A stretch of DNA of 64,000 nt from Bryoerythrophyllum caledonicum (Eukaryota > Streptophyta > Bryopsida > Pottiales > Pottiaceae). The translations under genes and the position numbers were made by a program. This document shows, in pieces, positions 21,941 through 54,219 of this stretch (its first letter is position 1; each line of letters opens with the position of its first letter). The stretch spans positions 42,941,158 to 43,005,157 of the forward strand of contig OZ020514.1 of NCBI GenBank assembly GCA_963971425.1, given 5' to 3'. A model generated the notes under the pieces. That model saw only the letters and a list, made by a program, of their open reading frames with translations, did not search any database and had not been told where the DNA came from.

Positions 21941-22029
21941 CTCCAAAAGATATTTGAAAGATATGAATGCATGAATGACATATGCGATAATCAACTAAAT
22001 CTAGACTTTGAAAAGTTAAGAATGGTCAA

Positions 22030-22465
22030 AGTCTAGATTTATTCATCAAGAGAATGTGCAAAAAATATGGCACAAAGGTGCATTGGAGATCTATCGAAGA
22101 AATCGAAGATGGTGAAATTCTTCTGAAAGGAAGGAGATTTATGGAAGAAGCGTTGGAAACATTAATGGGTGTGAAATGGTACCATGTACCCTTGCAAAAA
22201 CAAATAGGAGGATCTTCCGATGTGACCAACTGTACCTAGAACTTGGAAGTGAATTCCTCGAAAGTATGAGGAAAGAATAATTGATGATAAATAAGGGTGA
22301 ATGGATCCTTTACAAAAAGACTGATGATGTTCTAAAGCCGATTAAGGGGGACATGCTAGTAGTACATGCAAGAATAATGTGGTAGGAAACAAATGTAGCA
22401 TACAATCGGATCGAGTAGACACAACAAGCAATTTAAAAAAAGGCCGAGACATTAAAGATAAATCA
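22030..22465. other. Subterminal L2 segment without a recognised gene
   Basis: Contains a short open stretch of about 60 codons at 22054-22239 with no recognisable motif. I regard it as non-coding or the remnant of an exon. Confidence 0.4.
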
Positions 22466-22880
22466 TGACAACAACAGACAAATCAATAATAGAATAAATT
22501 GAGATGTAAAAATCTAACACATGCAGATATAGGAGGGATAGATAGATCTTCCTATCTCCTGGACTGATTCATTGAAGACAATTCATGACAACAATAGGCA
22601 AATTCATAACCAAATGTATTAAGATACGCAAATCAGACACATGCGGGTATAGGTGCAATCGATAGATCTTCCTATCTTCTACACTCAAGAGCACCCAACA
22701 AATATAACATACAATCGGTTGCAGTAGGCACAAAAAGCTTTTCCAAAGAGAATTGATTCACTACAGATAATTCATCACAACAACAGGCGATTCAATATCG
22801 TATGTATTAGGATGTGAAAATCTTACACATTCAGATAGAGTAGGGATTGATAGATCTTCCAATCTTCTAGACTCAAGGTC
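22466..22880. repeat. L2 3' subterminal array, about 120-bp units with central palindrome
   Basis: Three tandem units share 'AATTCATGACAACAA..GGCAAATTCA' and each contains the palindrome GATAGATCTTCCTATC or a near form (22541-22558, 22661-22678, 22848-22868). The first two units are about 121 bp apart. This is the L2 counterpart of the L1 3' arrays. Confidence 0.75.
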
Positions 22881-23023
22881 GATAGAGGATATCGCATGAG
22901 GATTGATAGGTCGTTTGGTCTTTGAACTCAAGGATCCGCCGCTTTTGTAGCTTCAAGGTTTGTCATTGCTGCTATTTGGTCCCTCCGTGGAATTGCTCGA
23001 GTCTCAGGGTTCAATATACTTGA

Positions 23024-26000
23024 CTAAGAAGAAAATACGACGGAATCAACATGAACGTGCACTTGACGTTGTTTCTCCGGAACCCACGTCGCTGACCAAC
23101 AATCCTTGTACTTCTTCTTGTGGTTCTTGAACGCATCTTTTGGCTCCCAAAAATGGATGATGAACATTCCATATTGCTCATCACCAACTACTCTATTGAC
23201 TGCTGATTGCGCTCTCCTTAACTAGACATGATAAATCTCACGGTCAGATGGACGGAGAAGGACCCAAGATCCGGAAACGACGTCTCGCCATGGATTCACA
23301 GCAACCTTCGGTCTGCTTGAACGTGGGCCACAGAAAGGTTCAGGCTTCACATCTTCACATGTGATATCTCCTCCAGTAATAAGGCTTAAAGGAGCAGAAA
23401 CTGTCACATTCTAATCCTGAATCGGCCAAAACTCTTCTACCAAGGCCAGGGGTGTGGAAGGAAGAGGTTTCTCAAGTTCTTCAAGAATTGCATTACAGTA
23501 TGCAATATACGGTGGAAAATCATGCCAAAAGCCCTCGCATTTTTCCATCCCCTTTTCCCGGAATATGATAAAACCTTGAATTCCAGATTTAATGAAGGAC
23601 CTCTTATCAATTGCTTTGGAAGTTTTTTCTCTTGACTTCTCAATTGCCTTTTCTTGATTGCTTGTTTAAGAAGGAACCTCGTCTCCCCACACTTGCCTGA
23701 AAGGCACTGGCTTTGGGAGGCCGGAAGGTATCTTGGGATTTCCGTCGGCATCCGACTTCCAAAGCCATATACTAGAGCTTATTCTGGGTAGCCAGTGAGC
23801 ATCAACTGCGTTCTCTTTCAAGCTCATGCCGGCCAACCATCGTCATTTACGTAGAATTTGAAGAGGTGTTTATCTCCTAAATCAGTAAGTATATTTTGGC
23901 CGTCACATAGAAAGCCTTCGACAAATGATTTGAAATCCGCAACCTCCTGAATAAACTCGGGCATAAAGCCCATCTCCTGCGATTCCATAAAAGACCTCAT
24001 CAAATCCGCTACCACATAAGTACTCCAATTCTTAAGGGCCTTGGATAAGTGGCTGAAGTAAGCATTGATATCCTCATGAATGTGGCTGACTAATTAGAAT
24101 CCAACTTGGATTTCCTTGAACACCGTATGATAAGTCAACATCGATAAGGACGCCATGAGAAATTGGTTCTTATTGTCCTTTGCAGAGTTGTCTAGCTGCA
24201 AATATAGATTTTTGGAAAGTGGGACAATTGCAGTTGAGTGGTTTGGTACTATCGTAGGTAAAAGGTTCATAAATCTGGACTTTCTTTTCAACATAGCCTC
24301 AAAAAACAAGTTTGCCGGCTCGTGAGGAAAAAATATACCCGTAAAGCAAATGGGAGGTTCTTTAAGACGACGAAGCAATCTCGCAAGGGATGAGATTGTG
24401 TAATTTGAGTCCCTAGGCCACAAGCCGGTAGAACAGTGGATGTACGCATCGTCTCCATGTCCATGCGTCACTATACCGGTGACGTTCATTGGGAGCTGAC
24501 CAAGAGGTCAAGTGAGTTTGGTGGAAACACGCATGCGCGAGATCGCAGTCTTGGCTATATCCATTTTGTTGTGGATAATGCAAAGAATCTCCCCCTTATT
24601 GCGCTTTGACTCATCTCTTCAACTATGGTACACACGCCTACATGACGCTTGAAGATTCAAAGGCTGACTCCGTTGTTTCACGAAGGATACATACTCGGCA
24701 GAGCCCTTCACCGATTTAATGATGAACTATTGAAGAGTGTCGCAGACGATGCACTTGGCAAAGGAACTCCCAACAGGCTTAACCACAACATTGTTGAAGA
24801 ACTCCTTGATTCTACTTACAGTAGACTGCAAAACAATGGGCAACCCCTACTGTAGATTTGTCTACAGACAGAGCCAAACAACATAAATCAGGAAACGTGT
24901 CATTGTGGGCAGTGAAGGGATCGAAAGATCTTCCTATCTACCAGGAGATGGAATCAATGTCATTTACTAGTGAGAAAAGCCAAACAATGACTCATGAGTA
25001 GGATAGGAAGATCTACCTATCCTCTAAAACACTCACATGAATGAGTCAAAGACTGAATTGAGGTGAATTGGGTCGAGTAATACCTCTGTGGCGTCAGCCT
25101 GGATCCTCTTCTAACTATGCTTAGAGGGCAGAAACTTCAATGTGTCCATCCGCCCTGGTACAGCCGTGCCCATCTGATGAGGCATGTGATCAACGTTCTC
25201 ACTTATGATAGCCATAATCGTATCCATGGCTTGCACGGTTCCGAGGCGCGGACGTTTGACGCCTTTGTTCCCGTGAGTTGACGAAATGATGCCCTCCTTG
25301 TACTGGTCGATATAGGTGTGGAACGTTGACTTTGGGATACCATGGATCTGGTACCATGCTGTTGAGCAGACATCTTGTCCAAGGAGAGTCACATACTTTC
25401 TTTTCCTATTATTTCCCAAGTAACGCAATTGCCCACCTACAACTCTACCATACTCTTGTTAGTCATCAAAATCTTTCAGCCAGAACTTTTGCCGCACGAG
25501 AAGCGTATCATGGAGCCGGAATAATCTGACGCATTCGTCAGGACAACATGACAACGAATTGACCGCTTGAATTGCTTCGGAGAGAGTCTTCTTTGCATAA
25601 GAGGTGAATTTCTCCTCGATTCGCGGTTTGCGACGAACAAAGCAATATGCTGCTTTCAAACGACCACCAAGGTGGGCGTTGGGGTCCACAGGAGAAGGAA
25701 ATCGGATGAAGTGGTCCACTGTCACGCAAAGACCATGTCCCCCATCGAATGTACAATCAAGAATGGGCCACCTCTGATGGCTCATGATGTGGTTACGGTC
25801 TCCTATAAATATGTCAAGACAATGACGCCAATGTTCTCCTACCCCAATGTATTGTCCTGGATAGGCTCAGCAGGCAGGGCGCAATTGATGCGACTAGATG
25901 CAATTGGAAGTCCTTTGCAATTATAGCGTATCACCACCATCCCTATTTATTATTCTTGCGGAAGAACAGATGAGAGTCCGCAGATTCGGAACTGCCATCA

Positions 26001-26374
26001 AGTTCTGGGTCAACCGATACTGGCTCATCTGGAAGGACAACGCATGTTGACACCCAAAGAACAGTTCTACCGATTGAATCAGCCAACAAAGTAACATCCT
26101 CATGAATTAGATGAATCAGAAGACATCCAACTGCAGGACAAATTTGCACAAGTCAGAGAAGAGTCATCTGAGGCATGTGAACGTTGATGTCAACGCCAAG
26201 CCAACGCCCTGAGGGGACTGCTTCAATAATAGTGGCTCGTCCCACAACCCCATGGCCAGCATAGCAAAGCAGAACAACCATTCCGGGCTCCAGCTCAGCT
26301 CGGCGGTCTCGCATGCCATTGTCACGGGCACAAGAATAAGTTATCCTATCTGGTCCGATAATGGCCTTGCGCAA
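23024..26374 (-). pseudogene. DUF7869-type transposase pseudogene, gene 1 of the L2 element
   Basis: Reading leftward: GHGVVGRATIIEAVPSGRW (26270-26210), AHLGGRLKAAYCFVRR and CPDECVRLFRLHD (25680-25500), VTLLGQDVCSTAWYQIHG (25390-25330), an intron-like gap with palindromes (about 24860-25100), GIVTHGHGDDAYIH (about 24475), YLQLDNSAKDNKNQF (about 24200-24160), HIHEDINAYFSH (about 24085-24050), and a C-terminal part ending in CWSATWVPEK and the stop at 23024-23026. The motif order equals that of copy A. Multiple stops and frameshifts are present. Copy 43966-46918 is its closest relative by eye (LCY.GHG.VG, AHLGGR.KA). Confidence 0.7.
24862..25090 (-). repeat. Palindromes in an intron-like gap of the L2 transposase
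   Basis: GATCGAAAGATCTTCCTATC lies at about 24909-24928 and AGGATAGGAAGATCTACCTA at about 25000-25019, between coding blocks. The gap has no coding similarity to copy A, where the ORF is uninterrupted, so L2 gene 1 probably has an intron here. Confidence 0.6.
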
Positions 26375-26489
26375 GCATCAAAACGGTTGATCAAGAACCG
26401 GACAAGAACACCATCACGCATAGAAGAGAGATGGATAGATCAACATATCCCGCAAAGTTCACACTCACCGTGAGAGACAAGTCGACCAC

Positions 26490-27035
26490 AAGAAAGATTG
26501 AAATACCTTCCTATCTAGTGGGTCCTTCCAAGGGACTCAAAGATCATCTAGCCTACAAGGTTACTCAGTAGCCATAGTAAACCATAAGACAAATTGAAAG
26601 ATCTTCCTATCTATAGAGTCTCCCTAGAGACTAACCAGAACATTAAGCGAATCGATAATCTCCAAGATCCCTGACAAATCAAAGTTAACCATGAGAGTGA
26701 TCGAAAGATCTTCCGATCTTTAGGTCTCAAACACACCAAAATTGTCTATGAGGAAGTTTGAAAGATACTCCAATCCACGAGGTCTTGCAAAAACCTTAGA
26801 CGAACCAAGTGAGATCAAAAGATCTTCCTATCAAGAGGGCCAACGAGAGGTCCTCTGCTGGGCATAGGATTATTAAATGGATCAAAAGATCTTCCCATCT
26901 CACTCTTACCAAATATTTAGGAGCAATTTGACTATTAAATAGTTGTAGAGGATCAAAAGATCTTCCTATTTTTAAGGTCCCCCTCTCCTAGAAGTTGTTG
27001 ATGAAGAGATCGATAGATCTTTTGATCAACGAAAG
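26490..27035. repeat. L2 intergenic palindrome array upstream of gene 1
   Basis: Eight copies of a motif close to GATCGAAAGATCTTCCTATC lie at about 26504, 26601, 26698, 26760, 26812, 26877, 26950 and 27005, spaced 50-100 bp apart. The consensus of all L2 copies approaches the perfect 20-bp palindrome GATAGGAAGATCTTCCTATC. It occupies the position of the L1 array next to the transposase 5' end. Confidence 0.8.
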
Positions 27036-27096
27036 CAACGAGAGGGTCTGGTGGTTGTTTATAAACCTCAATTATGTGTGTTCTATCGGAATGGAA

Positions 27097-27315
27097 AACA
27101 ACATTGACACTGGAACAAAGCCAATAGACTTGTGCGATGTATGAATCCATACCACAAGCTTGATTCCATTCACAAATAAATCGACACTGGAACGGAATCA
27201 TGTGCCTAGTCAATGAAGTCAATGTTGTAGGACAACATTGAAACTGGAACGAAACCGATAGAATTGTGCGAAGTATGAATCCATACCAAAAGCTTAATTA
27301 CATTCACATACAAAT
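27097..27315. repeat. Imperfect 84-bp direct repeat
   Basis: 27097-27180 and 27231-27315 share 'GTATGAATCCATACC', 'AACATTG.AACTGGAAC' and 'AAGCTT.ATT.CATTCACA', 134 bp apart. Confidence 0.7.
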
Positions 27316-28430
27316 TGTGAGAGCCTTGGATTTCGAGGCATACAACAATTCAATTCTACTCGTTTATAAAAAGCACTAGTATGGAAGTGATCGACGTTGA
27401 AGTTCAAGAGACAGTATCAACCTTAACACATCGAATGTATGGCGTCATGGCAATTTCCTAATGTTTGGAATAACAAACGCACTCGCAGAAAAAATGGTGA
27501 AAGAGGAAGGCGACGGTACCGTTGTTTGAGGCAAAACCGAGCAGAGATGGATCACGATCGCCCTCCACATGCTAGCATTTATGAACACGGTCCAACTCCA
27601 CAAACGAACACCCACGACCAAGCTTGCGCTGAAGGAGCCAACATCTACTAACGCTTAAGCGCTCATGCTCCAACACCACATTCGATATATCGCATGCTCA
27701 AGCTTTGTTGCCTTGAATACGAACTCCCTGACCACGTTCTCCCTCTAGCATTCGCTTTAACATTCTGTCAACCTAATTGCGCCTTACTACACACGATGCC
27801 GGCCACTTGTTGTGCTGAAAAATAAAACTTGAAGTTGCTTCAAGTCAGGAATGGAGCATCTCCTTTCAAACTTGAGCGGGAAATTTTACGTTCAATCCAT
27901 GGTGTAAGCCCAAAAATAGACCCCCTAAGAGAATCCATTTTTAAACCTACAAGGTCCTATTGTTACACCACTTAAACCATTCCTTATGCTCAACTCTGGA
28001 TAAATTTAAATAGGCCGAGTAATTATTTAATTAATTGTTATGTGATAATAATAATAATTATTTTTTGTTATTATTTATTGTTATTATTATCATTTATTTT
28101 TTTTGTTTGTTTTAGTTTATTATTTTATTTTATTTTTTATTTTATATATATATATTTTTTTAATTTTTTTGTTTAGGTCGGCTGATCAGGCCTGATCCAG
28201 ATCCTGTTTTGTAGCAGCAACTTCAGCAGCCCTTATCTTTTGATTCGGGACTCCAAATTCAACAAAATTTCCTCTCAAAATGATCAGCAACTCAATTCCA
28301 ACTTGAATAAACCACTTAGAACCAAGATCAGCAGGCCAAGGACATAGAAACGATCATCACAAGCATTTTCCATGCACCAACGATCTCAACACATCATTAT
28401 GAACCAAAAGACGAACTTGTGCATACAAAA
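27316..28430. other. Unassigned part of the L2 interior with AT microsatellite
   Basis: A short basic open stretch at 27439-27651 shows no motif. 28030-28170 is a TAA/TTA-rich simple sequence with long T runs and TATATA. Nothing else recognised; it could belong to an inserted retroelement. Confidence 0.4.
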
Positions 28431-29720
28431 CAAAATCAATGGGCTGTGAACCGGTTCAGTTCCGGTGGAAGCTATGTAGTCCAAGACCTAATTCTGACCA
28501 AAATTTACCAGCGCTTCCGCAGGAGATTCAGCCACCAGAAATTAAAAACCTAGCATCGCATGAATACACGCGGCCTAATATTGCCATCTCGACTAGCATA
28601 CCAATACACGAGGGAGAAATCAAGATTCCAAGGAAGGGTCACTCCCTAATTCGAGCAGTCGCGCAGCGCACGCACCGAATCCTCGCCTCCCACGAAGCAG
28701 CCACCCTCCCACTTCACGCACGAGCTCCCCACAGGTGCCACCCGATCCGCGCACCTCTCGTCCGGATTCAAGAACCCGACCTCGTGATTAAAATCACGGC
28801 CGCAGTCTCGCAACCAACCGCTCCGCCTGCACGCGCAGCGCCTTCACCAAAAAAAACACCCCCCACACGCCGGATTCTCCAGCTCGTGCGAGCTCTCCTC
28901 TCGCGCACTCAGGTGCGAACACACAAAAAAAAAACAAACCAGCTCTCTCGCGCATAGGAGCCCCTCGCGCGCACCGATGCGCCTTCCCCGAATTCGGTGC
29001 AGACACTCCCCAACACCCACACAGCGCACCACTCCTCGCGGCAGCTCTTCCCAGCTCTCAGTACACTTGAGCACAGACTCCTCGCTCCTCGCTCGCACGA
29101 GCCAGCCTCCAACCCAACGACAGAACTCGCGCACTCAGGCGCACACTTCAAAAAAAAACGGGCTCCTCCCCAAAAACAGAGCCCTCCTCTCGCACACCGA
29201 CGCGACCTCCAGCTCCATGAGCGCGTGCTCACAGGCACACACTAAAAAAAAACCGAAGAGCCTCTCCTCGCGCGCAGCAGGTGCGCGTGCTCACAAACAC
29301 AACACAAAAAAAATCCTCCCGAGAGCTCCAGCTCTCCGAATCCTCCACTCGATTCCGGCGCACACACACAAAAAACAGAAGAGCCCACGATCCGCACACT
29401 CACAGGCGCGTCCCTCGCGCACCGATCCCCGGTGCTCACGTGGAAAAAAAAAGAAGAAGCAGACCAAAAACAGAGAGCTCCAGCGCTCTCGCCAGCGACT
29501 CAGCCTGGCTCGTTTCTCTCTTTTTCCCTTTTTTTTTCTTTTTCTTTTGGTCTTTCTCGTTTTTCTTCCTCGACAAGACTGGCTTAGTTTAAATGAGGCA
29601 GCCCATGACCTCTCACAGAAGTGCAGGATTGGCTACTTACAGCCGTTTTTGCATGTTTTTAGTTTATTACTAGCATTAACTCGCCGCTTTGCTCCTGACA
29701 GGCCTCCCTAAAATTAATTC
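28430..29720. other. GC-rich block with regularly spaced A-tracts and small inverted repeats
   Basis: In contrast to its surroundings this block is rich in C and G on both strands and full of CGCAC/GTGCG pairs (CGCACTCAGGTGCG at about 28904, GCGCACCGATGCGC near 28969). A-tracts of 7-10 bases occur near 28850, 28923, 29148, 29245, 29307, 29370 and 29442, and a pyrimidine run follows at 29515-29575. The long open frames across it give only Arg/Ser/Pro/His-rich low-complexity protein, so I do not call them genes. It could be a promoter or CpG-island-like part, or the LTR of an inserted element. Confidence 0.5.
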
Positions 29721-30695
29721 TATGGTGGCAAGAATTGTCATGTGGCATGTGCATGGGGAAGCACACCCAACCACCTTCTTTTCTTTTCTTCCTCTCCTTT
29801 TTTTTTTTTTTCTTTTCCTTTTGATCTTTTAAAGACTATTACACTAGGTCTACTACTATCTACTGATGATTTGCAATTTACTTATAACTTCAAAAACTAA
29901 CCACACAGATGGACTCCTAGCACCCTAATTAGTCTACCTAAATTTTCCTAGCATTTTTGGAGTTCCTTAAGTATTTTTCCCGAGTGGTCAAACCGTCGAT
30001 CAACTAGTCAACCCCTAGAATAAAATAGCAATTCAACTCGGAAAATTCTAGAAATTTTACCACTACTTCTACCTGCTAGGAGACACTCTTCCAATTTTTT
30101 CCCATATTTTTTACCCATTTCTCAATTTTTGGTCATTTTCCAAGGACTTCCTTCCCATTTTTTATCTTTCTCTTCATTTCCATTCCACTTCCACTACACT
30201 TTTAAGTATATTAGTAGGGAGGAGGAAAAAAAAGGGAACTTAGTGTCCCATCATGGCACTAGGCCTATTAATCTAGGACTTTGACTCTAATAGGTGGGTT
30301 GACCACCAATTTAGCTAAAATTTGGTTAATACTATGAAGAAAACTCGAAAAAATGAAGAAAAAAGAGTGAGGGCCCACTTTGGCCACTCAGACATGGCGG
30401 CATAGAATGATTGACCATTTTGGCGGGCATGGAGAGTTGCATTTTGTTGTGATGATTGGCATATGAAATGAAATCTTGAGTGTAACGGTTCTTGACAATT
30501 AAGTGGTCGGAATTTAATGAAGAAGATCCTACGGATCTTTATCAGTTCACATGTGCATCCCACACTGCACCACAAGTGCTCATTGACATCCGACGGTTTG
30601 AATCGATTTTGATTATTGGACGTTAATCGAGGATTCTGGATTGAGGGATTTGAAAAACTCACGATTTGAAAATCATGGCTCAGGTTCTCGGTCAT
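29721..30695. other. Unassigned spacer, possibly LTR-like
   Basis: Contains pyrimidine runs (29770-29825) and unstructured A+T-rich sequence. I find no ORF with a domain and no clear TG...CA boundary with a matching partner, so a solo LTR cannot be established. Confidence 0.3.
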
Positions 30696-30699
30696 TAGA

Positions 30700-31270
30700 A
30701 TAAAGAACTAGAAAAAGAACTAGAATGAAGGATTGAAAATAAATAACTAGAATAAAAAAATAGAATAAAGAATTAGAAAGAAAGATTGAAAGCAAATAAC
30801 TACAATAAAAAGTACAGTAAAGAATTAGAATGAAAGATTGAATAGAAAAAATTAGAATAAAGAATTAGAATAAAGAAATAGAATGAAAGATTGAATAAAA
30901 ATTAATAGAATATAAAATTAGAATATGGAATTAGAATATGGAATTAGAATAAAGAATTAGAATGAAAGCTTGAATAGAAATCATTTGAATTAAAAAATAG
31001 AATAAAGAAATAGAATGAAAGATTGAATAGAAATAATTAGAATAAAAAAGTAGAATAAAGAAATAGAATGAAAGATTGAATAGAAATAATTAGAATTAAA
31101 AAATAGAATAAAGAAATAGAATGAAAGATTGAATAGAAGTAATTAGAATAAAAAAGTAGAATAAAGAAATAGAATGAAAGATTGAATAGAAATAATCAGA
31201 ATAAAAGAATAGAATATAAAATAAGAATAAAAGATTGAATAGAAATAACTAGAATGAAATATTAGATTAA
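30700..31270. repeat. About 53-bp minisatellite
   Basis: Tandem array of a purine-rich unit containing AGAATAAAGAAATAGAATGA followed by AAGATTGAATAGAAATAATT; clean 53-bp copies are seen at 31000-31200. The left part is shorter and more degenerate with a 13-bp sub-unit (TAGAATAAAGAAT). Roughly ten copies. Confidence 0.85.
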
Positions 31271-31282
31271 TAAATTAGAATC

Positions 31283-31450
31283 AAAATTTGTAAACCAATT
31301 GAACAATTTTGTAAACCAATTGAACCAATTTATAAACCAATTGAACGAATTTGAAAACCAATTGAACCAATTTGAAAACCATTTGAACCAATTTGTAAAC
31401 CATATGAACCAATTTGTATACCATATGAACCAATTTGTAAACCAATTATA
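31283..31450. repeat. 21-bp minisatellite
   Basis: Eight tandem copies of AATTTGTAAACCAATTGAAC plus C/A, including variants with CATATG. Because the unit is 21 bp, the minus strand stays open as a seven-residue protein repeat (IGSYGLQ type), which I regard as incidental. Confidence 0.85.
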
Positions 31451-31589
31451 CCTATGTGTAAATTAAATAGTACAAGAAAATTCAAATAATTTGTGAAATT
31501 CCTTTTACTAAGAATATAGGATCTAGGGTCACATGGTTTAAGAGTCCACACTCTGTTAATAGAATCTCTAGGACTTAGGGATATAGGGT

Positions 31590-31710
31590 TTGAAGGATAA
31601 GGATGTAAAATGTAGGGTTAGGGTTAGGACACGGTTTAGGATTTAGGGTTTAAGGTTAGGGTTAGAGTTTTGGGTTGGGGTTTAAGATTAGGGTTTAGTG
31701 TTTTTTTGTT
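31590..31710. repeat. Degenerate plant telomere-type repeats
   Basis: Irregular copies of TTTAGGG/TTAGGG (GGGTTAGGGTTAGG, GGATTTAGGGTTTAAGG) over about 100 bp. It is interstitial, as unrelated sequence continues on both sides. It supports a plant-type telomere sequence for the organism. Confidence 0.8.
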
Positions 31711-31939
31711 GAATTCAATGTTTTTTAATTTAATCCACAAATGCAAAAGTATATACATTGTTTAACACACATTTTTGGATTTTGATGTATTTAGAAAATG
31801 TTATCAAATTAGCAAGACTTACTTCATTCAATTGATATGTTTCAACAAACATCTATCATTTGAAGGTTATTCCAAAGTTTGAACTTTATCATGTTCAAAA
31901 GCACCATAATACATGTAGGATATCGCGGCCGCCACTTTG

Positions 31940-32240
31940 AAAATTAAATTGTAAAAAGTAAGTTTATAAACCAAATGTGAAAAATTAAATTTGCAAATGA
32001 AATGTGTGAAAACAAATTTTGCAACTGAAATGTGAAAAATTAAATTTGGAAATGAGATGTATAAAATTAAATTTGGAAATCAAATATATAAATATAATTT
32101 GCTATTTAAATTTACAATTCAATTTTGAAAATTAAATATATAAATCTTTTATAAATCTAATTATAGAAATTAAATCTAAAAATTAAATTTGTAAAGTAAT
32201 GAAATGAGTTTTAGTAAATTAAGTGTGTAAATTAAAAACC
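31940..32240. repeat. About 27-bp A+T-rich degenerate tandem repeat
   Basis: Repeats of the type GTGAAAAATTAAATTTGCAA then ATGAAAT, progressively degenerate to the right. Confidence 0.6.
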
Positions 32241-32435
32241 AAATCACAAAAAGAAGTTCAATGTGAAGAAAGTAATGAAAATTCACAAAAAGAAAGTAAT
32301 GAAGACTCAAATCACACCAGAAAATATTGAAGACTCAAATCAAACAAGAAAGTAATGAAGAGTCAAATCACACAAGAAAATATTGAAGACTCAAATCACA
32401 CAAGAAAGTAATGAAGAGTCAAATCAGTAAAAGAA
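32240..32435. repeat. About 54-bp tandem repeat with 27-bp half-units
   Basis: Alternating half-units AAGAAAGTAATGAAGAGTCA and AAGAAAATATTGAAGACTCA, each followed by AATCACAC; three to four full units. Adjacent to but distinct from the 53-bp array. Confidence 0.8.
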
Positions 32436-33316
32436 GTTCACGGCTTGAAGAGAAGTTCACTTGAGAGAAATGATGGAGAAATCATCATTAGAAGTGCCAA
32501 ATGTTAACTCAGCCGTCGTGGTCAACGGCTTGGTTCCATCATCATTATTTTTTCCATCGCCTCCTTCCCGCCACCACCAACTCCAGCCCTTCTAGCTCTT
32601 CCAACTCCTCTATTTCTTGCTTTTCAAACGCTACTTGTTTTTTTAGCTTCCCCGCCTTCGTCTCTCTTCTCCCACGTGTTGTTCTCTTCCTGCATTGTGT
32701 ATGGAGTGTAGTACCTTAGTGTGAGCGTGAGTGCGAGGTCTATTTGTGAGTAGCAGCAGCAGCAAGAGTGCAAGGTGTTAGTGTCGGTCAAAGGCGATTT
32801 CGTGAGCGCGATCAAGAGCATTGTGATCAGGAGCAACAAGATTAGGAGCAGCGCGGCCAGGAGCAGCGTCGGAAGGTTTAGGAGGAGCACGAGCAGCACC
32901 GGTGTTTGAAGGTTCATGGCGGGTGTTTGAAGGTTCTAAGGGAGCGAGTTAGCGAGCTAGTGAGTAAATTTTCTGAGCGAGCGACTGCAGCTAACGGGTG
33001 CGCCCAACAACTGCAACCTCAGTGCTAACCGGTTGGTGCATCGACGTGTTGATTCATAAAGACAAAGGTAATTGCAGCTTTCATTCTTATTCCTTAGTTT
33101 TTTTTTGCATGCCTGTAGGTTTTTAGAACCAAAACAAGGTAGTAAACCTAGGTTTTCTCTCAAGTTCGTTTTTTTCACTTTGGAATAGAGTTCCTCAAAT
33201 GAATATCAATCTGCTTATACTAGTTACGTAAATAATCATGTAACTAATCAATAACAACTATTTCCAACATGTTTTCTTATGATTTTCAGCTTGCGCACTG
33301 TTTTGGACGCAGCACG
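32436..33316. promoter_or_regulatory. Probable 5' region of L2 gene 2
   Basis: Non-coding sequence directly before the first gene 2 exon. It contains a purine-rich GAGCA/AGGAGCAGC stretch (32745-32910) and pyrimidine-rich stretches (32560-32700). A promoter or leader is inferred from position only; I see no defined TATA element. Confidence 0.3.
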
Positions 33317-33459
33317 ATGTCCGAAACCGCCTCGGACAATCCCATCAAGTAAGATTCCATGCTTTGAATGATCTCTGCTCTGATACACACAAACCAAGCT
33401 CAATGATAATATCATATGAATGATATGAACTACGCTTAGTCATATTATACATTGCAATC

Positions 33460-34015
33460 CAGGGTGTAGTAGATAGAAATATCTATGTATCCCTCCTTAT
33501 TTAGAGAAAGGTTTCCAAAGGACTTCGTGAATTAGTGGATATAGTGATCTCTCCTTGAGGTTTAGGGTTTTAGATGATAGGAATATATTCTTATCTACTT
33601 ATTCAATGTAGGAATGAGCAAAATTCAGTAGGTCAGAACACATTCCTATCTCTCAAAATCAAGTGATAGGCTCGAGAGAAGCTTTGAGTATCGAAAGATC
33701 TTCTCATCTCTCCTTGTGGGGTCGTAGGATCAGGATTAGTTCAGAGGGAGTTCGTAGATCAGAATATATTCCTATCCCACTTTGCGGTGGGCTTGGGTTG
33801 CTTGAGAGTATGGGGATTGGTAGATCTTCCTATCCCTTCGCAAGGATACTTTGCGATGTCTGGTTTACTTTTGATCGGTAGATTCCCCTATCCCACTCTG
33901 AGGTGGGCTTGGGTTGCTTGAGAGTTTGTGGATCGGTAGATCTCCCTATCCCTTCGCGAGGGTACTTTGCGACGTTTGGTTTAGTTTTGATCGGTAGATC
34001 TCCCTATCCCATCAC
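33460..34015. repeat. L2 palindrome array in intron 1 of gene 2
   Basis: About nine copies, best as GATCGGTAGATCTCCCTATC (33929, 33989) and GATTGGTAGATCTTCCTATC (about 33816), spaced roughly 55-60 bp, all inside the intron 33349-34045. Some units share the flank GGTGGGCTTGGGTTGCTTGA, a short tandem duplication. Confidence 0.85.
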
Positions 34016-35401
34016 GCCGTTTGATCTGACCATTTGTATGAGCAGTAAAAACTTGATTTCGTGGTCAAAGACGAACAAGGACTGGCGTCTTCTAAGCCTC
34101 CGTGATGCGGTGACCTGTCGTGTCAAGGCCGTTGGCCGTACATTCAATGACCCTAAACCAAGCGCCTTCTTCATTGCAAGTAATGTCACCAAATGGGGTC
34201 TTGCTTGAGTACGGGATGAATCGAAGCAGACAATCCAAATTGCGCGAGTTATGTTTGTAGCCAATGTCGCCCAGGGATGTGAAGAAACGATTTCGCTCAC
34301 GATTCAGAACGTGAAGGTGGTGGATGTGGTGGACGTGGCTGGAATTGAAGAGACTGTTGTTCACGTTATTAAAGATTTTGTTGCAAGTGCGAAGTGTTTG
34401 AGGATCTATGGCCTTTTTGTATCAACTAAGGATATGGTCACCTGTCTTTGTGCTTTGGTCAAAGATCACAATTTTTCTATTGCTAGGACAGGACCAGACG
34501 TTAAATGAATTATAGAGAGTTGGATGGAGCTCTGTGCTTGTCATGATGGCGCCAATAGCGAGTTGACCAAGCAAGATCCGCCTACACCTCCTAGAATGAA
34601 TAAGAGGCCGTCACAAGCAGTTGGGGAGACTTCAGGACCTGGGGACACGAAGAAATAGCGGAAGAAGTCAAATCCTAAGATGAAAGAATTCTCATTGGCT
34701 CAGGCGGTGATGTTATCAAGCAATTCTGTTTCGAAGTATTTGGCACAGGACCTGCAGAAAGTGAGGGCGTTGTACGAGAAAGAATTTTTGAGTCGGCATA
34801 TATTCGATAGGTGCCTGGTAAAGAAACTTGACGATGCGAAGACTGACCTCATCGTCGGAATTCAACGTCTACATATGGCCACACCCGGGGTGGTGGTGTA
34901 TCGAAAGCTCGAGAAGAATCGTGTTGGCAAGATCGTTGACCAGAAGCGGACAATGTTGTTTCAAGCTTCGTTCCACCATCAGTACGTAATGCCGATTAAA
35001 AACAAGCTCGCTGCTGACGATTTTGGTGTGGATCCCGTCGATAGTTTATTCCAGTATTTTGTGACAAGGCCGACCAGACGAGACATTACAAATAATACGC
35101 ACTATGTTATCATTGGTGGACAGCATTGCGTCGCTGCACATAAAGTCTTTATTTTTTCGAGAAGTCTCTTAGAAATGATGAACTAGCCGACGCACAAAGC
35201 TTTATAATTACCATCGTTTGGGCAGAACCAGCCAATTTTGGAAAGTTGTGCTATTACTCAAAAGTCCTTAACCAAGATCTGGCTCGAGTTAGGGCGGAGA
35301 GCAACTACCTTACTCAACTGGGACTTGCACGGAAGAGCTCAGCCCATGCAGGGTGTCCCAAGTCGTCTCCAAATGGTTTGGCACACCCACCTCAATTCAA
35401 T

Positions 35402-35793
35402 GTAAGTCTAAAACCATTTGTTAAATTGTATCCTCTTGTCCGCGTTGTTATGTTGTTTACCACGGAATTGATTGAAATATATTCCTATCCCAAGGGTCCT
35501 CTAATCACCGCAATGGTCACAGAGATCAAAATATCCTTCTATCCGCACGGTCTCTTGACGTTTGTTATTGTTGTTGGATGTTGTCGTTCTAAGGATTTTC
35601 CCCTGTACCTTTTGCCCCTGTAGCATTAGCGTATGTTCTAACTTCTCCGCCTCTAGACTTTGGGTCATTCATATAGATCAAAAGATCTTATCGTCAACGT
35701 CTCACTGGATGGGAAGATCTTTCTATCATACCCTCGTGCTTTCTTCGATCCGAGTCTCTAATGATGCTCTTTGTGTCCAATTTTTTTGTGCAG
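35402..35793 (+). repeat. Intron of L2 gene 2 with embedded palindromes
   Basis: GTAAG...GTGCAG intron with four motif copies near 35468, 35524, 35667 and 35710 (e.g. GATGGGAAGATCTTTCTATC). Confidence 0.75.
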
Positions 35794-36600
35794 GCTTGGC
35801 TAGAAAAGGTTTCCATTGTTTTCACAAAGAATGACTTCACAAAAGATGATGCCACTGGACAGCCAAAGCTATCGCTTCTCTTCATCGATGAGCGGATTTA
35901 CTAGACCTAGCTGCGCATCCAGGAGAACTGGATAAGTGGTCTACTACCTGACCCATACGGGGTACAATGCACTTCTCTTGGCGGTGCGGACGGCAACTTT
36001 GCCAACAAGGCCATCATGCGGATGTTGTGGTGAGGAGGGAGAAGGCAAAGTAGAGGCGATACCAAAATACAGCCTTGAGAAAGGCCGATCTTCAGCCACT
36101 ATATGCCATGTGGGAGACCGACATTGACAGGGTTCCTCAGCTGGTCATGGAGAAGAAGCGCTCGATTAAGTCGACAAAGTCCACGAAGAAGGCCCCTGTT
36201 CTTAAGGGACTTGAATTCGATGCAACATCGAGAAGAAGAAGAGACTCATAAAAAATGAGTTTATGCACTACTGTAAGACGAAGCCGCTGAAGTCAAAGAC
36301 TCAGAAGGATGTGTCTTATACGGAGACAAAGTATGCTGATGCGGCCAATGAATTCAAGGTTTTGGAGTTTGTTGTTGAGTCTTGGTATGACAGGTTGATG
36401 AAGGATAAGGGTGGCAATAAGTACTTTGCAAAGCAAGGGTATCTGCATCGGATTTCAAGAATGCGACAACGTAGTGGAATCAACTCAGGTGGGAGAATTT
36501 CAATATTGACGCGGTTGATAATATTATTGGGACACTTGCGGCGCCCAAGAATGTCATTGTCAACATCGGTGGAGGCCCTGCAATAACTTGGCTTGGTTTG

Positions 36601-36723
36601 GTAAGTGGATAGGAATATATTTCGATCTCCCCGCGGTATGCTATGATGTGTGTGATTCTCGTTGTTGCATTGTGATTGTTGGCATTCCAAGTTTTCATTT
36701 GTGTCGCTCGATTTTGCTTGCAG
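36601..36723 (+). repeat. Short intron in the motif I region of L2 gene 2
   Basis: GTAAG...TTGCAG, with one motif copy at its start (GGATAGGAATATATTTCGAT). Its position matches the D intron 9602-9885. Confidence 0.7.
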
Positions 36724-37371
36724 TCAAAGGGCGCGCAAGTCATCGAGGTCGCCTATTCAAAGGACAAACGTCTGGCTACCATAAGGACAACCACATGTAT
36801 CTGGGATTCTTGAAAAGTGGCTGCAGTAACGATTCTTGAACAAGAGAAACAAACCAAGAAGAAGCAGCCTAGGATGAAGGAGCCTAGGATGATAGAGCCC
36901 AAGAAGGAGCCCAAGAAGAGAGAGCAAGCCTCGAAGAGAGGGCATGATTGTTCGAATTTGGTCCTCGACGACGAGTCGAAGGTGATTGAGGCGTCCAGAC
37001 AAACGTAGAGGGAGGAGGCAAATGAGGACGAGGAGGAAGAGCAGGAGAATGACAATGCGGCGGAGAAGGAAGACGAGGAGGAGGACGACGGGGCAGAGAG
37101 GCGGAAGAAACGACAGCATGAGTCATCTGATGAAGAATTGAGCACGGAGCCGAATAGCGATCATAGCAAGCACTCCACCAAGACGAAGGACAAGACGGAG
37201 GACAAGGATGAAGACGAGGAGGAGAACGATGTCAAGGTTTGCCAGCCTCTAAAGAGTAGGATCTCGAAGAAGAAAGCCTCAAAGGTGTCACTATCCCATC
37301 GGCATGACAAGATTCTACCAACTCAAGCTTCTATAGGAGATGTCTCCTCTCGGCACAGTTCTCAAGTATAA

Positions 37372-37662
37372 TGCAACGGCTAACTCCAAACTATATCACC
37401 AGAACAATTAATCTTCTGACAGATTATATAATTTTTTTAGATGCTCAGAAATCTAAGAGAATAATTTTTTTGTTCATTATTTTTTTTTGTTTTAGAAGTT
37501 CCTCGGTTAGTCTTTGTGGATGGAAGGATCCTTCATTCCTTAGTGAGTACTGGAGGATAGGAGGATCTTTCGATCTACATTGGTCTTACGCTTTGCCCGT
37601 TTTTAATACAAAGATCTAATCACCCTAATTCTATCATATTCCAATTCTCTAACCTAAATCTA
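37372..37662. other. Intergenic or intron sequence between gene 2 parts (L2)
   Basis: A+T-rich, with one palindrome copy at about 37556-37577 (GATAGGAGGATCTTTCGATC). It separates the methylase-like tail from the next coding block, matching 10850-11467 in copy D. Confidence 0.5.
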
Positions 37663-39594
37663 TGCCGTCGGGGTTATGTACGAAGGGAGATCCGTCCATT
37701 GGGAAAGCTCGACGGTGGCCTAATATCTAGGACGTGAGTGCAGGCACTCGTGAAGACGTGGTGGTACGTCTTGCTGCTCAGATCGAGGCGATGGATGGAG
37801 TGGCGTCGTTGTACGACATTGAGCATGGAGATGTGAGTGGAACGGCCTATGAAGGCATTGAAGACAATTCTGATGAGGCCCTTGTTGAAAAACTGGCATA
37901 GGACATCGAGGCAGCTGTTGCGCCGTTGCCGAAATTGTCTGTTTTGCAATATAAGAAGACAGTATTTAAATACACGACGAAGTATACCTTAGGAGAATCA
38001 AGCTCTACGACAAGAGTGACATATCTGATTGTACGTTTATCACCACCCAAAGTTTCTTCAGACGATGTTCAGCGTTCTATGTCCGGCCCGATGCCAATGG
38101 AGGTAGATGCATCATCTCAGCCTAGTTTTAGCGCTGCATTGGGGACTATCCCGGATTGTGAGCAACCCTCGGCTGCAAATACACTTGCCAGACTTCTTGC
38201 TACTGATTGGGCCGCCTCTTCTCCAATTCCTCAAGCTCGGACTTCTTCCCTAGATGGCGTGGAGATTGCGGAAGAATTGCAGGCTGGGATATTTGATGAT
38301 GCTAGTAAATCTCTGCAGGCCTTCAGCCCTCCTACGAGGGTGTTGAAGTTTGCGGTCAATGATGCAGATTCAGACTCACTAAAGTTCAGCCAGGATTACA
38401 GGGTCAACTCGGAGTTGCTTCGTGATGAAGCAGCTCTTAGGGAGAAGACTGCACATTGTGCTGCCCATTTTGGTGGTCGACCCTCTACTGAAGATACATC
38501 TCTTGGAGGCTGCTCTACCTTCACTATTCTCTTCTTTTTGCGATGTATCAATAGATAGGAATATTTTTTGATGTCATGGCCTCCTTTTTTTTGTGATCTA
38601 TGTTAGTAGTATAGAAAATGTGCCGATGTTGTAGCCTCCTTCTTTTGATGCTCTATAGATCTAGATGGGAAGATCTTTTGATGTCCTCGCCTCCTTCATT
38701 TGGTGCTTTATAGATCTAGATAGGAAGATCTTTCGATGTCCTTCCCTCTCTACTAACGCTTGGTCTTTGGTTCTCTGCAGCTGAAATACTTCCACCCGCT
38801 CTGACTGTCGCCCTTCGCTCTCCAAAGGTAAAGGATCTGAGGTACACGGTCCTCCTGGACTTGAATGGATTTCTAGTCCACAGGATGAATAGCGGTTGCA
38901 GTTGTATCCCTAGATAGGAATATCTGCCGATCTAACTTCCAGCTCTTATCTTTTGTTATGTTTGCAGCCAGTCTACGACGACTCAAAAAAATCATCATAT
39001 TGTCTGTGAACGGATTGCTTTGTTTTGAGCAATACTATAACTGCACCCCCCGACGCTTCGATCACAACAACATTATTGTTCGACCTGGTCTCATAGAGTT
39101 CTTCAAGATCCGATTGAGGTCCTTCCATGTTGGTATATGGTTGTCTATGGTCCCCGGACGGCTGAAATTTTTTCTTCACGTGCTCTTCCCGATGACATAA
39201 GGTCGAGACTTCTCTTCGTTTATGGACGAAACAAGTGCTCAAGGCCACAATAATATCCTTACTGTGAAAAGATTCTTTGAAGACTATCAATAGACCAAAA
39301 GACAAAGAAAATTTGCCTTCCTGACAAAGTGTTGATGGTTGATGATCAACCAATGTGGCATGTTTTTAACGGAGACATGGCTTGCTACTTTCCGAAGCCT
39401 TGGCGTGGTGAAATGGTCTTGCCCAATGCATCCAATGTCATACCAAATATTACTACAGCATTGATTTCGTTCATCCTTCCGCTGCGATCTTATGCCTCGG
39501 TGAAAAACTATCTACGTCAACATCACATGGATGGAAAGTACAAACGAAGACTGCTTGAATCATGGCACCTTGACCGAGTACTACAAACTTTGTA
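37663..39594 (+). pseudogene. FCP1/NIF-type HAD phosphatase-like region of L2 gene 2
   Basis: A Ser/Asp-rich N-terminal part (37663-38540, in two frames) is followed by intron-like gaps with palindromes (38550-38780 and about 38905-38967). The HAD part shows VLLDLNGFLVHR (38848-38884), LKKIIILSVNGLLC (38976-39017, a second motif I-like strand), IIVRPGLIEFFKI (39073-39110), HVGIWLSMV (39128-39155), then in a shifted frame KVLMVDDQPMWHVFN (39328-39371) and MVLPNASNVIPNIT (39414-39455). These are the ordered landmarks of the FCP1-like plant HAD family, with N for the second Asp of DxDx. A frameshift and stops near 39200-39310 disable it. C-terminal residues end at 39594. Confidence 0.65.
38550..38970 (+). 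repeat. Palindromes in two introns of the L2 phosphatase-like gene
   Basis: Copies at about 38556, 38660, 38717 (GATAGGAAGATCTTTCGATG) and 38914 (GATAGGAATATCTGCCGATC). Tandem 55-60 bp units repeat 'CCTCGCCTCCTTCATTTGGTG'-like text split by the motif. Confidence 0.75.
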
Positions 39595-40017
39595 AAACTA
39601 AACTGCATTACATGGTTGATTTTACCATTTTTGTTTTGCCACAACTTCTCATTCACTTTTGATTTATGAATAAAGTCTTCAATGAGTAAATTACTGTCTT
39701 TCTTCAAGTGCCCTTGAACACCTATTACTTTAATGCTTACTAGATAATCTATTTCATGGATCGCCAGATCTATCAATGTATCTAGAGGAAGATCCCTCTA
39801 TGTAGCTATCGTTTGATCAGTTTCTTATTGTGTATTGGTGACCCATGATAACAATTCAATGGCTATTATTGTCTTTCTTCGCGCTCATTGATTGTAATAT
39901 TTTTCAATACTTTGCTATAATGGTAACATTGGCAGATCTTAAGGTCTAGCATCCCGTACATAATAATGTGCCAGAGTCTAGATTTCATCCTAAAGTCTTA
40001 ATTTACTTAAATGTGGC
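39595..40017. other. Gene 2-side terminal region of the L2 element
   Basis: Non-coding tail after gene 2 ending in the TIR-like stretch AGTCTAGATTTCATC...ATTTACTTAAATGTGGC. The last 40 bp match 47340-47379 closely and the inverse of 21984-22035 loosely. Confidence 0.55.
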
Positions 40018-40106
40018 ATACATAGGCATTTTACCACCTAACATATATCTTATATCTGATAGTCTACATTCAACATGCATCTTAGATGACATCAAACTCG
40101 TAGTCA

Positions 40107-43965: not shown

Positions 43966-46918
43966 TTGATGTCTTCAAGTTGCGGACCGGACAATGAGTT
44001 CACTAATCCTGCAAGTAGTAACCTTGATAATTACTTTGATGATAAGTGTAAGCAATTTGAACTGCCCATGAGAGCTTTTCTTTGCTACCTTGGTCATGGC
44101 ATTGTTGGACATGCTATTGTCATTGAATTGGTTCCTGTTAGATCTTGGCTTGGCGACAATATTGATCACACATTCGCCGAGTTGGCTCTTCTTAGACTTG
44201 TTGAGATACATGTAGTGGCGCAAAGTCTTCGCATCCATTCAATGCAGAATGGCATCTCCATCTTGGCTGAATTGATTGGTAGAACAATTCTCTGGGGGAC
44301 AACAAGTCTTGTCTAGACTTCGGACATACGCAAAACTCTTGGGTCCACAAACACTCCTCCTCTTGTACCTCAAGCGGAATAGGTGGGTAAGGTGGTGAAA
44401 CGCTTCAACGCTGGCAAGTATCTTAGCACCTCTCGTTGTATCAATTGCGTATGTTCGGATGAATTGTTCGAAAATAATACTTTGGGGGAGGATAATATTG
44501 GCGTTACACTGTTTTATGTTATTCTTAGAGATCCTAGAAACATCATGAGTCATCGGAAATGGCCCATTGTCAAATGTACATTCAAAGAGGACAGTCTTAG
44601 TTATACGCTTGATGACCATTTCGACCGTCTTCTTGACACTGCGGATACAAATGCGCACCTTGGTGGCCGCCCAAAAGCACCATATTGGTTTGTTTGTTGT
44701 AAGAATTGGACTGAGGAGAAGCTAAACGCGCTTGCTAAGAAGACTCTACCGGGAAAAATTCAAGCACTCGATTCGCGGTCATGTTTTTTAATAAATGCGT
44801 TCAATTAATTAGGCCCCAAGATATCCTCTTCATTTAACAGAAGTTCTTGGTGATGGACTTTGACAAACGCCAAGATTATGCAAGGTCTATGGATAAATAA
44901 TTGAAAACAAAAATATGTCACTTTACTAGGTCAAGATATATACCGTATAGCGTGGTATAAAATTCATGCCATATTGAAGTCAACATTTCATGAATATATG
45001 AACGGGTACAAAAAAGGCATTGTTTCCTCTATGTACAGAAACACGTACGTCAAACAACCCCATTTTGGAATCGTGCAAGCACTTGGTACAATTTTGGCTA
45101 TCAACAATGAGACTACGGATCATATACTTAATCGGATGTAGATAACAGTACCACGCCCGATAGAGACTCAAGTTTATGTCCTTTAGAAATAGTTGGAAGA
45201 AAATTCAAGCTCATGCCACAGATGTATTACCTTACATATTACATCAACCACTTTCCTGCATTCACAAACTTTGAGCACCTCATGGTTATGTTTATGTGCT
45301 AAGAGAACCTCAAACTTGCTCTCTACACCTAGTTCACGGTAGGATCTTATGATCCCTAGGGGATGGTTGCTCAGAGTCCTACGATACCTAGAGAGAGGAC
45401 TCTGAGCAGCACAAGGGCAATATTCTTTGTAATATCGAAAATAAAATGGATATAGCCAACATCACTATCCCTCGTATGTGAGTTTCCACCAAACTCACTT
45501 CACCTCTGGGTCAGTTCCTAATGAACGTCACATGTATAATTACGCACAAACATGGAGATGGTGTTTTTTCTCACTACTCTAGTGACTTGTAGCGAGTCCA
45601 CTTTAATAACACTATTTGTTCTCTTGCGAGATTGCTTTGGCATCTTGAGAAACTACCCCTTCATGAATCAGGTAGGATTTTCCCTCACGAGCTGGCTAGT
45701 TCTTTCAAGCTATGCTCAAAGGGAAGTGCTGATGTATTGACCTCTTCTCTCTGGTAATGATTAACTCAGTTGTACTCGTCCTCCATCCACAAAATTATAT
45801 TTGCAGATTGAGAGTTGTGCAAAGGACAATAACAAATGGTTTCTCATGGCGTTCTTATTGATGTTTATTTATCAAAGGGTGTTCAAAGAAATCCAAGTTG
45901 ATTATTTGTTAGTTGGGCACAAGCATGAGGATATTGATGCTTACTTTAGCCACTTGTCCAAGACCCTGAAGAGTCAAAATACTTATTTTGTCGTGGGTTT
46001 GAGGATGTCCTTCATGCAATCATACAATTTCGGTTACATGCCCAAGTTTGTTCAAGAGGTTGCTAATTTTAAATCTTTCGTCTAAAATTATATTCGTAAT
46101 GGTGCTGACAGACTTGTTGGCTTAGGAGAGATGGACCTCTTTAAATTCTACGTAGATGAAGAAGAGTGGCCTGTCATGCATTTTAAGGAACTTGCAGCTC
46201 ATGCGCATTGGCTACTCTGATACACGCGTCTCATTCGACTATGGAAGGAAGATGCCGACGAGAAACTCATGATACCTTCCGACCTTCCAAATCTAATACC
46301 TTTCAGGCGGTAGTGGGACGATAAGGTTCCTTCTTCTAGAGACAAGGCAAGAGAGAAGGTTTCCAAAGCTTTTTATAAAAGGTCGTTCATCTAGTGTGGA
46401 ATTTGAGGTTATATAGAATTTTGAGAATACAAGATGCTTGAAAGTTTGGGCTTCCGAAAGGATTTTCCACCTTAAATTGAATATTGCAATGGAATACTTG
46501 TAGAATTAGAAAAACATCTTCGTCCTACTCTTGCGGCCTTGGTAGAAGGCTTTTGGCAATTCATGATTGGAAGATGAGAGATCTAGCTCCATCCTGCCTC
46601 ATAATCAATAGAGATGTCACACCAGAAGATGACAAAGGCAAGAGAGACCGAAGGACGTCTAGAATTCATGGCGAGATGGTGGAGCGGGCTCATGGATCCT
46701 ACTCTATCCTTGACCCCAAAATATATCCCACTTGGTTCGAGAGAGCATGTTTAGCAGTCAATTGTAGTAGAGGACATGTCGTCTACGGAAAGTTTAATAT
46801 CCAATTCTGGAAGCCAAGAAATCAATTCAAGAACAAGAAATATGAGGATTGTTGGGCACGAACGTGGGTTCCAAAAAAATGTTGTTTGGGTACGCATATA
46901 GTCGGTTTTGCCTCTTGT
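43966..46918 (+). pseudogene. DUF7869-type transposase pseudogene, fourth copy
   Basis: Coding blocks on the plus strand: FLCYLGHGIVGHAIVIEL (44074-44130), CINCVCSDELF (about 44435), GVTLFYVILRDPRN, MSHRKWPIVKCTF and AHLGGRPKAPYWFVC (to 44700), DIYRIAWYKIHAIL (about 44934-44974), an interval with palindromes (45200-45430), MNVTCIITHKHGDGVF (about 45520-45565), IESCAKDNNKWFLMAF (about 45805-45850), LLVGHKHEDIDAYFSHL (45908-45957) and the C-terminal region through CWARTWVPKK to TAG at about 46918. The order matches 23024-26374. Frameshifts and stops disable it. The Asp of the usual L/MDN motif is missing here (ESC), a substitution at a presumed catalytic position. Confidence 0.7.
45330..45410 (+). 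repeat. Palindrome plus 12-bp-arm hairpin in the intron-like gap of the fourth copy
   Basis: GTAGGATCTTATGATCCCTA at about 45339-45358 is followed by GCTCAGAGTCCT (45369-45380) and its perfect complement AGGACTCTGAGC (45396-45407) around a 15-base loop. Confidence 0.75.
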
Positions 46919-47379
46919 AGCTGCCTATATAAGATGCTCACATATTTGGTAACTTTTATACATAAACCTAGGTGTTGTCACAATTTCCATACACTGTATT
47001 AGCCCTATTCAAATACTTTTGTTTGTACTGGAACCATTTGTTTCGCACTGTAGATGCAATATATACATTATTCTTTTCACTTCTATGAATACCAATCAAT
47101 GGAGATGGAAGGATCTTCATATCTCGTAATGCAAGGTCACTTTGCACTTCTACTATAATCCTCCTATCCTTGCAAGGCCTCTTGTGCACTACACATTTCA
47201 ACAATTTATTAATTGTTTCTCTTGTGAATCTTCAAACTTTCAAAATTTATTCACCATCTTTGTTAGATCATAGGGTCTCATAAAGCACCTCTATGTCATA
47301 TTTTGTTGGATTTTCCTTGATTAAAGCTAGACTTTGACCAATCTAGACTTTTAAAAGTCCAAATTTACTTAAATGTGGC

Positions 47380-54068: not shown

Positions 54069-54219
54069 TCTGCATTCAAATGAGGTAAATATTAAATAAC
54101 CCTGCCAAATAAGAATAGGTGAATACCTTGTAGGAATAGACATCAATGAAGAAGCATATGAAGAGGTAAAGTCTGGCGCTTGAAAATACATTTGATTCAA
54201 GTGAATTGACATTAAAGAA

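Follow-up and report, generated by a model that had tools for sequence, protein, structure and literature searches.

A giant, probably Sola-like transposon in the moss Bryoerythrophyllum caledonicum with a DUF7869 gene, a divergent FCP1-like accessory gene and arrays of palindromes

The window analyzed here is a 64,000-nucleotide stretch of the moss Bryoerythrophyllum caledonicum (C1:42941158-43005157, where C1 is contig OZ020514.1, in an assembly of 437 Mb and 894 contigs). Its central feature is L2, a large DNA element with inverted termini that encloses two genes reading away from each other (Table 1): gene 1, which encodes a DUF7869 protein, and gene 2, which encodes a large multi-exon protein. 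The L2 copy is degraded: stops or frame changes break both genes, and the first of the two HAD domains that close gene 2 is a remnant. The domain evidence for gene 2 is therefore taken from better-kept copies elsewhere in the genome, above all from E1, a relative of L2 on contig C2. Parts of a second, distant lineage of the same gene pair, L1, also lie in the window.

Table 1. Positions of the features discussed, numbered from the first letter of the window
Feature	Position	Strand	Remarks
L2 element	21982..40019	.	18,038 bp; terminal inverted repeats and 4-bp target-site duplication; both genes between the repeats
Left target-site duplication, ACAT	21978..21981	.	Perfect match to the right one
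Right target-site duplication, ACAT	40020..40023	.	Perfect match to the left one
Left terminal inverted repeat, ATGCGATAATCAACTAAATCTAGACTTT	21982..22009	+	Diverged
Right terminal inverted repeat, ATGCCACATTTAAGTAAATTAAGACTTT on the minus strand	39992..40019	-	
Gene 1, DUF7869 protein, probable DDE/D transposase	22929..26356	-	Broken copy; coding blocks via homology to other lineages
Gene 2, multi-exon	34020..39674	+	Broken copy; coding blocks by homology; genome-wide family
Gene 2 exon with conserved block read as ParB-like (…YVIIGGQHCVAAHK…)	34659..35464	+	Frame change at about 35144; database and fold searches gave no match
Gene 2 middle region, read as methylase-like	35761..36728	+	Shorter than in other copies; no database match
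Gene 2 C-terminal HAD/NIF (FCP1-like) region	38771..39674	+	HAD1 remnant (…LLDLNGFLVH…) and frame-broken HAD2
Palindrome array, left subterminal	22203..22864	.	4 matches
Palindrome array upstream of gene 1	26430..27028	.	9 matches
Palindrome array ahead of the first long gene-2 exon	33472..34008	.	8 matches
Palindromes between gene-2 coding blocks	35470..35728	.	4 matches
Palindromes between gene-2 coding blocks	38554..38738	.	3 matches
Neighboring related element	44476..47381	+	Gene 1 and terminal inverted repeat ending at 47381
L1 copy A	2462..6187	+	DUF7869 gene (to 5203) and gene-1-side terminus at 6187
L1-type gene 2 of another, diverged element	6213..10937	+	77% nucleotide identity to the C8 copy
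L1 copy D	50256..58913	-	Terminus at 50256, DUF7869 gene 51237-54356, spacer

A preliminary description, made from the letters of the window alone, had placed L2 at 21984..40017, with a DUF7869 gene reading left, a second gene reading right and inverted sequences at the ends. All of this holds, and the limits moved by only two bases at either end. The terminal inverted repeats (TIRs) are imperfect and start with ATGC(C/G)…; the same termini bound E1 and the one end seen of the neighboring related element. At up to 3 mismatches, the genome holds 482 matches of the TIR pattern and 0 of its reversed control. Target-site duplications (TSDs) of 4 bp flank 7 of the 8 L2/E1-branch elements, namely L2, E1 and 5 of the 6 further elements listed with both termini; the one element without a TSD is C1:58.58. 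E1 itself spans 17,133 bp between termini at positions 3243 and 20375 of its stretch (loci L039-L041), with the TSD CTTT. It is flanked by inverted copies of a rare 25-mer with 8 genome matches (at L039 2315 and L041 about 2551), perhaps a small TIR element into which E1 inserted. This sequence (CCGTGG…) was tried as the E1 TIR and rejected: some of its 8 matches form small pairs, and the L2-like termini sit inside it.

Gene 1 matches PF25273 (DUF7869) with an E value of 1.2e-20 on the L2 fragment at 24094-24507 and of 1.9e-41 in L1 copy A. Three blocks, HDKMD, (L/M)DN(S/A)xxDNKN and GHTx(E/D)DID, are kept in those L1 and L2-type rows that span them, and their conserved acidic residues would form a DDE/D triad; we infer that gene 1 is a Sola transposase. 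The family is hugely expanded in this genome, with 3,613 first-look candidates, the best 150 of which were scored and all found above the cut-off. No mention of DUF7869 was found in the literature searched.

The two genes form one unit. For the L2 type, linkage was counted among the best 150 gene-1 matches and 145 gene-2 loci (150 matches, fragments merged). The nearest gene 1 within 25 kb was divergent at 78 of these gene-2 loci, tandem at 3 and convergent at 0, with none at the other 64; random placement gave a mean of 6.1 gene pairs in any orientation, and at most 15 (200 trials). The arrangement recurs in the L1 lineage, as first described: a divergent L1-type gene 2 lies within 35 kb of 55 of the 89 listed gene-1 loci (1 tandem, 33 none), and the divergent pairs are mostly 10.6-11.5 kb apart (89 gene-1 and 135 gene-2 loci listed). 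Genomic neighborhoods of the TIR agree. Among 100 listed of the 482 matches, 41 have an outward-reading gene 1 within 4.5 kb on the inside and 0 on the outside, a further 11 have an outward gene 2 within 12 kb (1 on the outside), and 48 have neither among the listed loci. The genes are thus linked and divergent in two distant lineages, and between the same TIRs in the L2/E1 branch; the second, gene-2-side terminus of L1 was looked for and not found. L1 copies A and D do share a terminus, but it is found 3' of the transposase gene, at the gene-1 end of the element and not at the gene-2 end to which it was earlier assigned.

In E1, gene 2 covers about 7 kb with introns and has at least one frameshift in its middle exon. 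Domain scans of 10 exon-sized E1 translations (7 of gene 2, 3 of gene 1) show that gene 2 ends in two NIF domains (PF03031), with E values of 2e-16 and 1.9e-8 and scores of 60.5 and 34.6 bits, both above the curated cut-off of 21.8. An active FCP1-type phosphatase carries the motif DxDx(T/V). At the positions that we take to be catalytic, HAD1 keeps the nucleophile Asp, the Ser/Thr, the Lys and the Asp pair, with the second Asp of the motif replaced by Asn (DLNG) in 5 of 5 rows from 4 lineages; in HAD2 the nucleophile itself is replaced by Ser (S[VL]NG) in 4 of 4 aligned rows. Neither domain retains DxDx(T/V) in any of these rows, which sets both apart from the PF03031 phosphatases of FCP1/SCP type (NLI-interacting factor-like) that they match. 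HAD1 and HAD2 are probably not active phosphatases, and would be binding modules. In L1, where gene 2 is resolved up to a repeat that interrupts its locus at about 20.1 kb, no HAD match appeared in the five gene-2 exon pieces scanned.

The remainder of gene 2 is harder to place. By eye, the block with GGQHxVAAHK resembles ParB and the middle region a methylase. The preliminary description had called the gene ParB-like, methylase-like and FCP1-like; the last of these names stands on the HAD fold, and the first two found no support in profile libraries or in AlphaFold and Foldseek. The gene-2 exons scanned match neither ParB nor methylase families of Pfam and NCBIfam, and the conserved-block exon has no such match in PHROGs either. 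Two AlphaFold models, built on 21 and 29 copies, all from one genome, are weak. The mean predicted local distance difference test score (pLDDT) is 43.7 for the first, which takes in the middle region of a relative and whose blocks past residue 250 stay at or below 40, and 50.6 for the second, of the ParB core. A Foldseek search with the weak ParB-core model gave nothing at E≤0.001 and 57 matches at E≤10, the best at 0.4. A sequence search of the PDB gave one insignificant match per query, and in a search of viral contigs for relatives 25 stretches fitted a pattern and 0 were confirmed. A piece of L1-type gene 2 (window 9200-9622) matched Phage_TAC_19 at E 0.0018, below the cut-off, and is taken as chance.

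These results bear on the proposal that gene 2 joins a ParB-type protein to a functional adenine or cytosine DNA methylase by which the element is marked, an idea put forward for algal elements. ParB and methyltransferase (MTase) domains do occur at the same position in Sola1-1_Ec32 of Ectocarpus, according to the available text of PMC12477816, and the moss genome holds another repeat gene with a recognizable N6_N4_Mtase domain (PF01555, E 3.7e-7). However, the 138 genome matches to PF01555 at E≤10, 8 of them above the cut-off, lie elsewhere: none falls within 8 kb of the 145 listed L2-type gene-2 loci, and of the 135 listed L1-type loci only 1 has a match nearby, a weak one (E 0.56) at 3.9 kb upstream. 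Two of the eight above-cut-off matches were inspected and are copies of a different repeat gene. An HHalign comparison of the middle region with the recognizable MTase family was also empty, a weak test in which the alignments hold two or three sequences. With no family match, weak models and PF01555 matches away from the gene-2 loci, a working methylase is not accepted and the reading by eye of the middle region is rejected, whereas the conserved block may still prove ParB-like; we regard the ParB-methylase proposal as improbable. The earlier claim that the element carries its own DNA-modifying and phosphatase functions was likewise too strong, given the HAD substitutions and the lack of any methylase family match.

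Gene 2 is under purifying selection. The ratio of nonsynonymous to synonymous substitution rates (dN/dS), computed on open frames only, a choice that favors intact copies, is 0.14-0.76 in 24 within-lineage pairs and 0.22-0.26 between lineages (3 of 4 pairs; the remaining one is saturated); for HAD1 it is 0.27-0.38 in 3 pairs. The conserved block is homologous in L1 and L2 gene 2, being recovered at E 8e-9 among 1,322 open reading frames by a profile without the L1 row, and the conserved blocks of the two lineages are 26% identical. An HHalign value of 3e-58 for the L1 and L2 ParB cores was discarded as circular, the L1 row being inside the profile. FCP1/NIF phosphatases are ordinary host genes, and gene 2 could on that ground be unrelated cargo or a host-derived hitch-hiker. 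Such cargo would be expected to decay or to differ between lineages, whereas this gene stays linked in two lineages at 26% identity and under selection; these data largely counter the idea, to which we give only the slimmest chance.

The non-coding DNA of the elements is studded with palindromes of 18-21 bp, found ahead of both genes, in the gaps that separate coding blocks and close to the element ends; the arrays first described between and outside the genes are thus real and extend inside them. With words and mismatch limits chosen post hoc on sequences already seen, there are 36 palindromes in E1, 34 in L2 and 31 in L1, against 2.0, 0.4 and 0.0 in shuffles. Coding blocks, whose limits are approximate homology matches, hold 3 in E1 (17.6 expected), 1 in L2 (13.4) and 3 in L1 (11.5); the E1 stretch scanned took in about 0.9 kb of left flank, which holds 0. 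The words differ by lineage. A de novo scan recovered ATCGTAGGATCCTACGAT or a near variant in E1 and in lineages a and c, a variant with an ATATAT center in b, ACCGGAGGATCCTCCGGT in d and TTAGCTCGACTCGAGCTAA in L1; lineage words are also written as GATCGTAGGATCCTACGATC and TTTAGCTCGACTCGAGCTAAA, beside ACCGGAGGATCCTCCGGT. For L2 itself, whose word is imperfectly palindromic, and for six further stretches of the window the same scan gave nothing clear. The L1 pattern has 0 matches in E1 and 1 in L2, and in L1 the L2 pattern has 0 and the E1 pattern 2 (2.8 in shuffles).

Two readings of the arrays compete with recognition by an anti-silencing factor. One holds that they are purely structural, arising from cruciforms or replication slippage with no protein reader, and some palindromes do sit within tandem repeats; it is very improbable, since they are depleted from coding blocks, their sequence differs by lineage, and slippage alone does not predict one palindrome across many separate non-coding stretches. 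The other takes them for transposase binding sites of the subterminal-repeat type and gene 2 for a second transposition protein; En/Spm, with TNPA and TNPD, is such a two-protein system. Arrays near the ends and between the genes would suit this, as would a gene pair linked in distant lineages like an obligate one. However, palindromes also occur deep in gene-2 introns and before both genes, where synapsis needs neither, and FCP1-like domains would suit transcription better than cleavage. A second transposition protein is unlikely on this balance, though far from negligible.

The element is likely a member of the Sola superfamily, an assignment that rests on TSD, TIRs and size. Sola elements have a DDD transposase, 4-bp TSDs and sizes sometimes above 15 kb, and are present in a moss (PMC10741241, as far as its text was available); a Physcomitrella Sola1 appears in a table of PMC9033089. 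The L2/E1 branch shares the 4-bp TSDs and the TIRs, and with these the size above 15 kb and the moss host. The closest described architecture is that of the 21.5-kb Sola1-1_Ec32 of Ectocarpus, assigned to Sola, in which a gene opposite the transposase encodes a 1104-residue protein with ParB-like and N4/N6 MTase domains; comparable proteins have been described in transposons of green and red algae (both from PMC12477816). Gene 2 likewise lies on the strand opposite the transposase of a large element. Unlike the algal protein, it has no recognizable ParB or MTase domain and, in the L2/E1 branch, carries two NIF/FCP1 HAD domains in addition; palindrome arrays and a TSD go unmentioned in the part of that account of Sola1-1_Ec32 which was available. 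The element thus differs from the known Sola and algal kind by its FCP1-like domains, its unrecognizable or lost methylase and its palindrome arrays, and the literature searched held no earlier account of these in such an element. The consulted parts of PMC4455052 and PMC10294476 held nothing decisive.

By layout, the arrays recall VANC. VANC motifs lie in introns and in intergenic and terminal non-coding DNA of VANDAL elements of Arabidopsis (PMC5735166, available in part), and VANDAL21 and VANDAL6 share with the moss elements an accessory gene and family-specific short motifs repeated in non-coding DNA, here with partial overlap of the E1 and L2 words. The VANDAL motifs measure 8-9 bp and are arrayed in one orientation, in contrast to the longer palindromes here. 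The suggestion of the preliminary description, that the element may evade or use host chromatin silencing, is indirectly favored by such lineage-specific arrays outside the coding blocks.

Taken together, at a probability of about one half, we favor a Sola-like giant transposon whose gene-2 protein recognizes its own element through the palindromes and counters silencing. L2 would be a decayed member of this cut-and-paste family with two divergent genes. Gene 1 would act as the transposase and gene 2 as a large accessory protein, composed of a block common to both lineages and, in the L2/E1 branch, two terminal HAD domains of FCP1/NIF type. That protein most likely recognizes the element's own palindromes in the promoters of the two genes, within introns and toward the ends. 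Once bound, it would sustain transcription of the element or shield it from silencing by the host, and the HAD domains would serve for binding and not as phosphatases. Several observations weigh against this. No DNA-binding domain is recognized in gene 2 by Pfam, NCBIfam, PHROGs (conserved-block exon only) or Foldseek of the weak model, and a genome-wide search with PF02195 at E≤10 gave no match. For 64/145 and 33/89 of the loci no partner gene appears among those listed, and the de novo scan gave no clear word for lineage e. Between E1 and L2 the words overlap (26 matches to the L2 pattern in E1, 9 to the E1 pattern in L2), and specificity between these two lineages is therefore partial.

A bolder version of anti-silencing by gene 2, which we consider doubtful, is a self-marking in the manner of parS and ParB. 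Here gene 2 would load on about 30 lineage-specific palindromes and spread or bridge, and its inactive FCP1-like domains would hold RNA polymerase II or its phosphatase machinery. Each family would then keep only itself unsilenced, and protein and palindrome would diverge together, splitting families.

The surroundings hold further repeats. Within L2, parts of the spacer (window 27903-30393) are a dispersed repeat also found beside L1 gene 2, at about 20110-22540 of the L1 locus on C8 (L047+L060), with pieces 81-93% identical; it is probably a nested insertion of long terminal repeat type. L1 copy D is 97% alike to the C8 copy, and its nearest L1-type gene 2 among the loci listed is divergent and 29 kb from its gene 1, at C1:43021560, outside the window. 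L1-like terminus remnants lie at 1324 and 13674, within a repeat pair (1-1813 and 12042-13677) whose segment 1321-1813 runs opposite to its counterpart. Two copies of a sequence of about 580 nt, in inverted orientation, 95% alike and 1.3 kb apart (18472-19053 and 20335-20915), form a foldback-type structure, and telomere-like GGTTTAG repeats occur interstitially at 31633-31703 and 55308-55423. Rfam at gathering scores had 0 matches in the window. At 62287-63899, on the minus strand, lies a decayed relative of another repeat gene family, represented by loci L093 to L096; blastp against five pieces of L093 gives E 1e-12 and 4e-4. L093, the locus of the PF01555 match at E 3.7e-7, and L094 agree at 97.6-98.8% in two blocks of 2.6-2.8 kb, and both show by eye a ParB-like DGNHR stretch and an IIDQPF motif. 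On the scale of the genome, L2-type genes concentrate on C1, which holds 90 of the 145 gene-2 loci and 83 of the 150 gene-1 loci listed in 65 of the 437 Mb; C1 is possibly a sex chromosome or one rich in transposable elements.

VANC is, to our knowledge, the sole well-worked plant example of transposons recognizing themselves as distinct from host and cousins; the moss element would be a second candidate, apparently independent of VANC. It also extends the accessory-gene idea from algal transposons with FCP1-like domains. Because the palindromes are long, several lineages with different words share one genome and the gene pair is kept in two distant lineages, the coevolution of reader and word would be directly testable.

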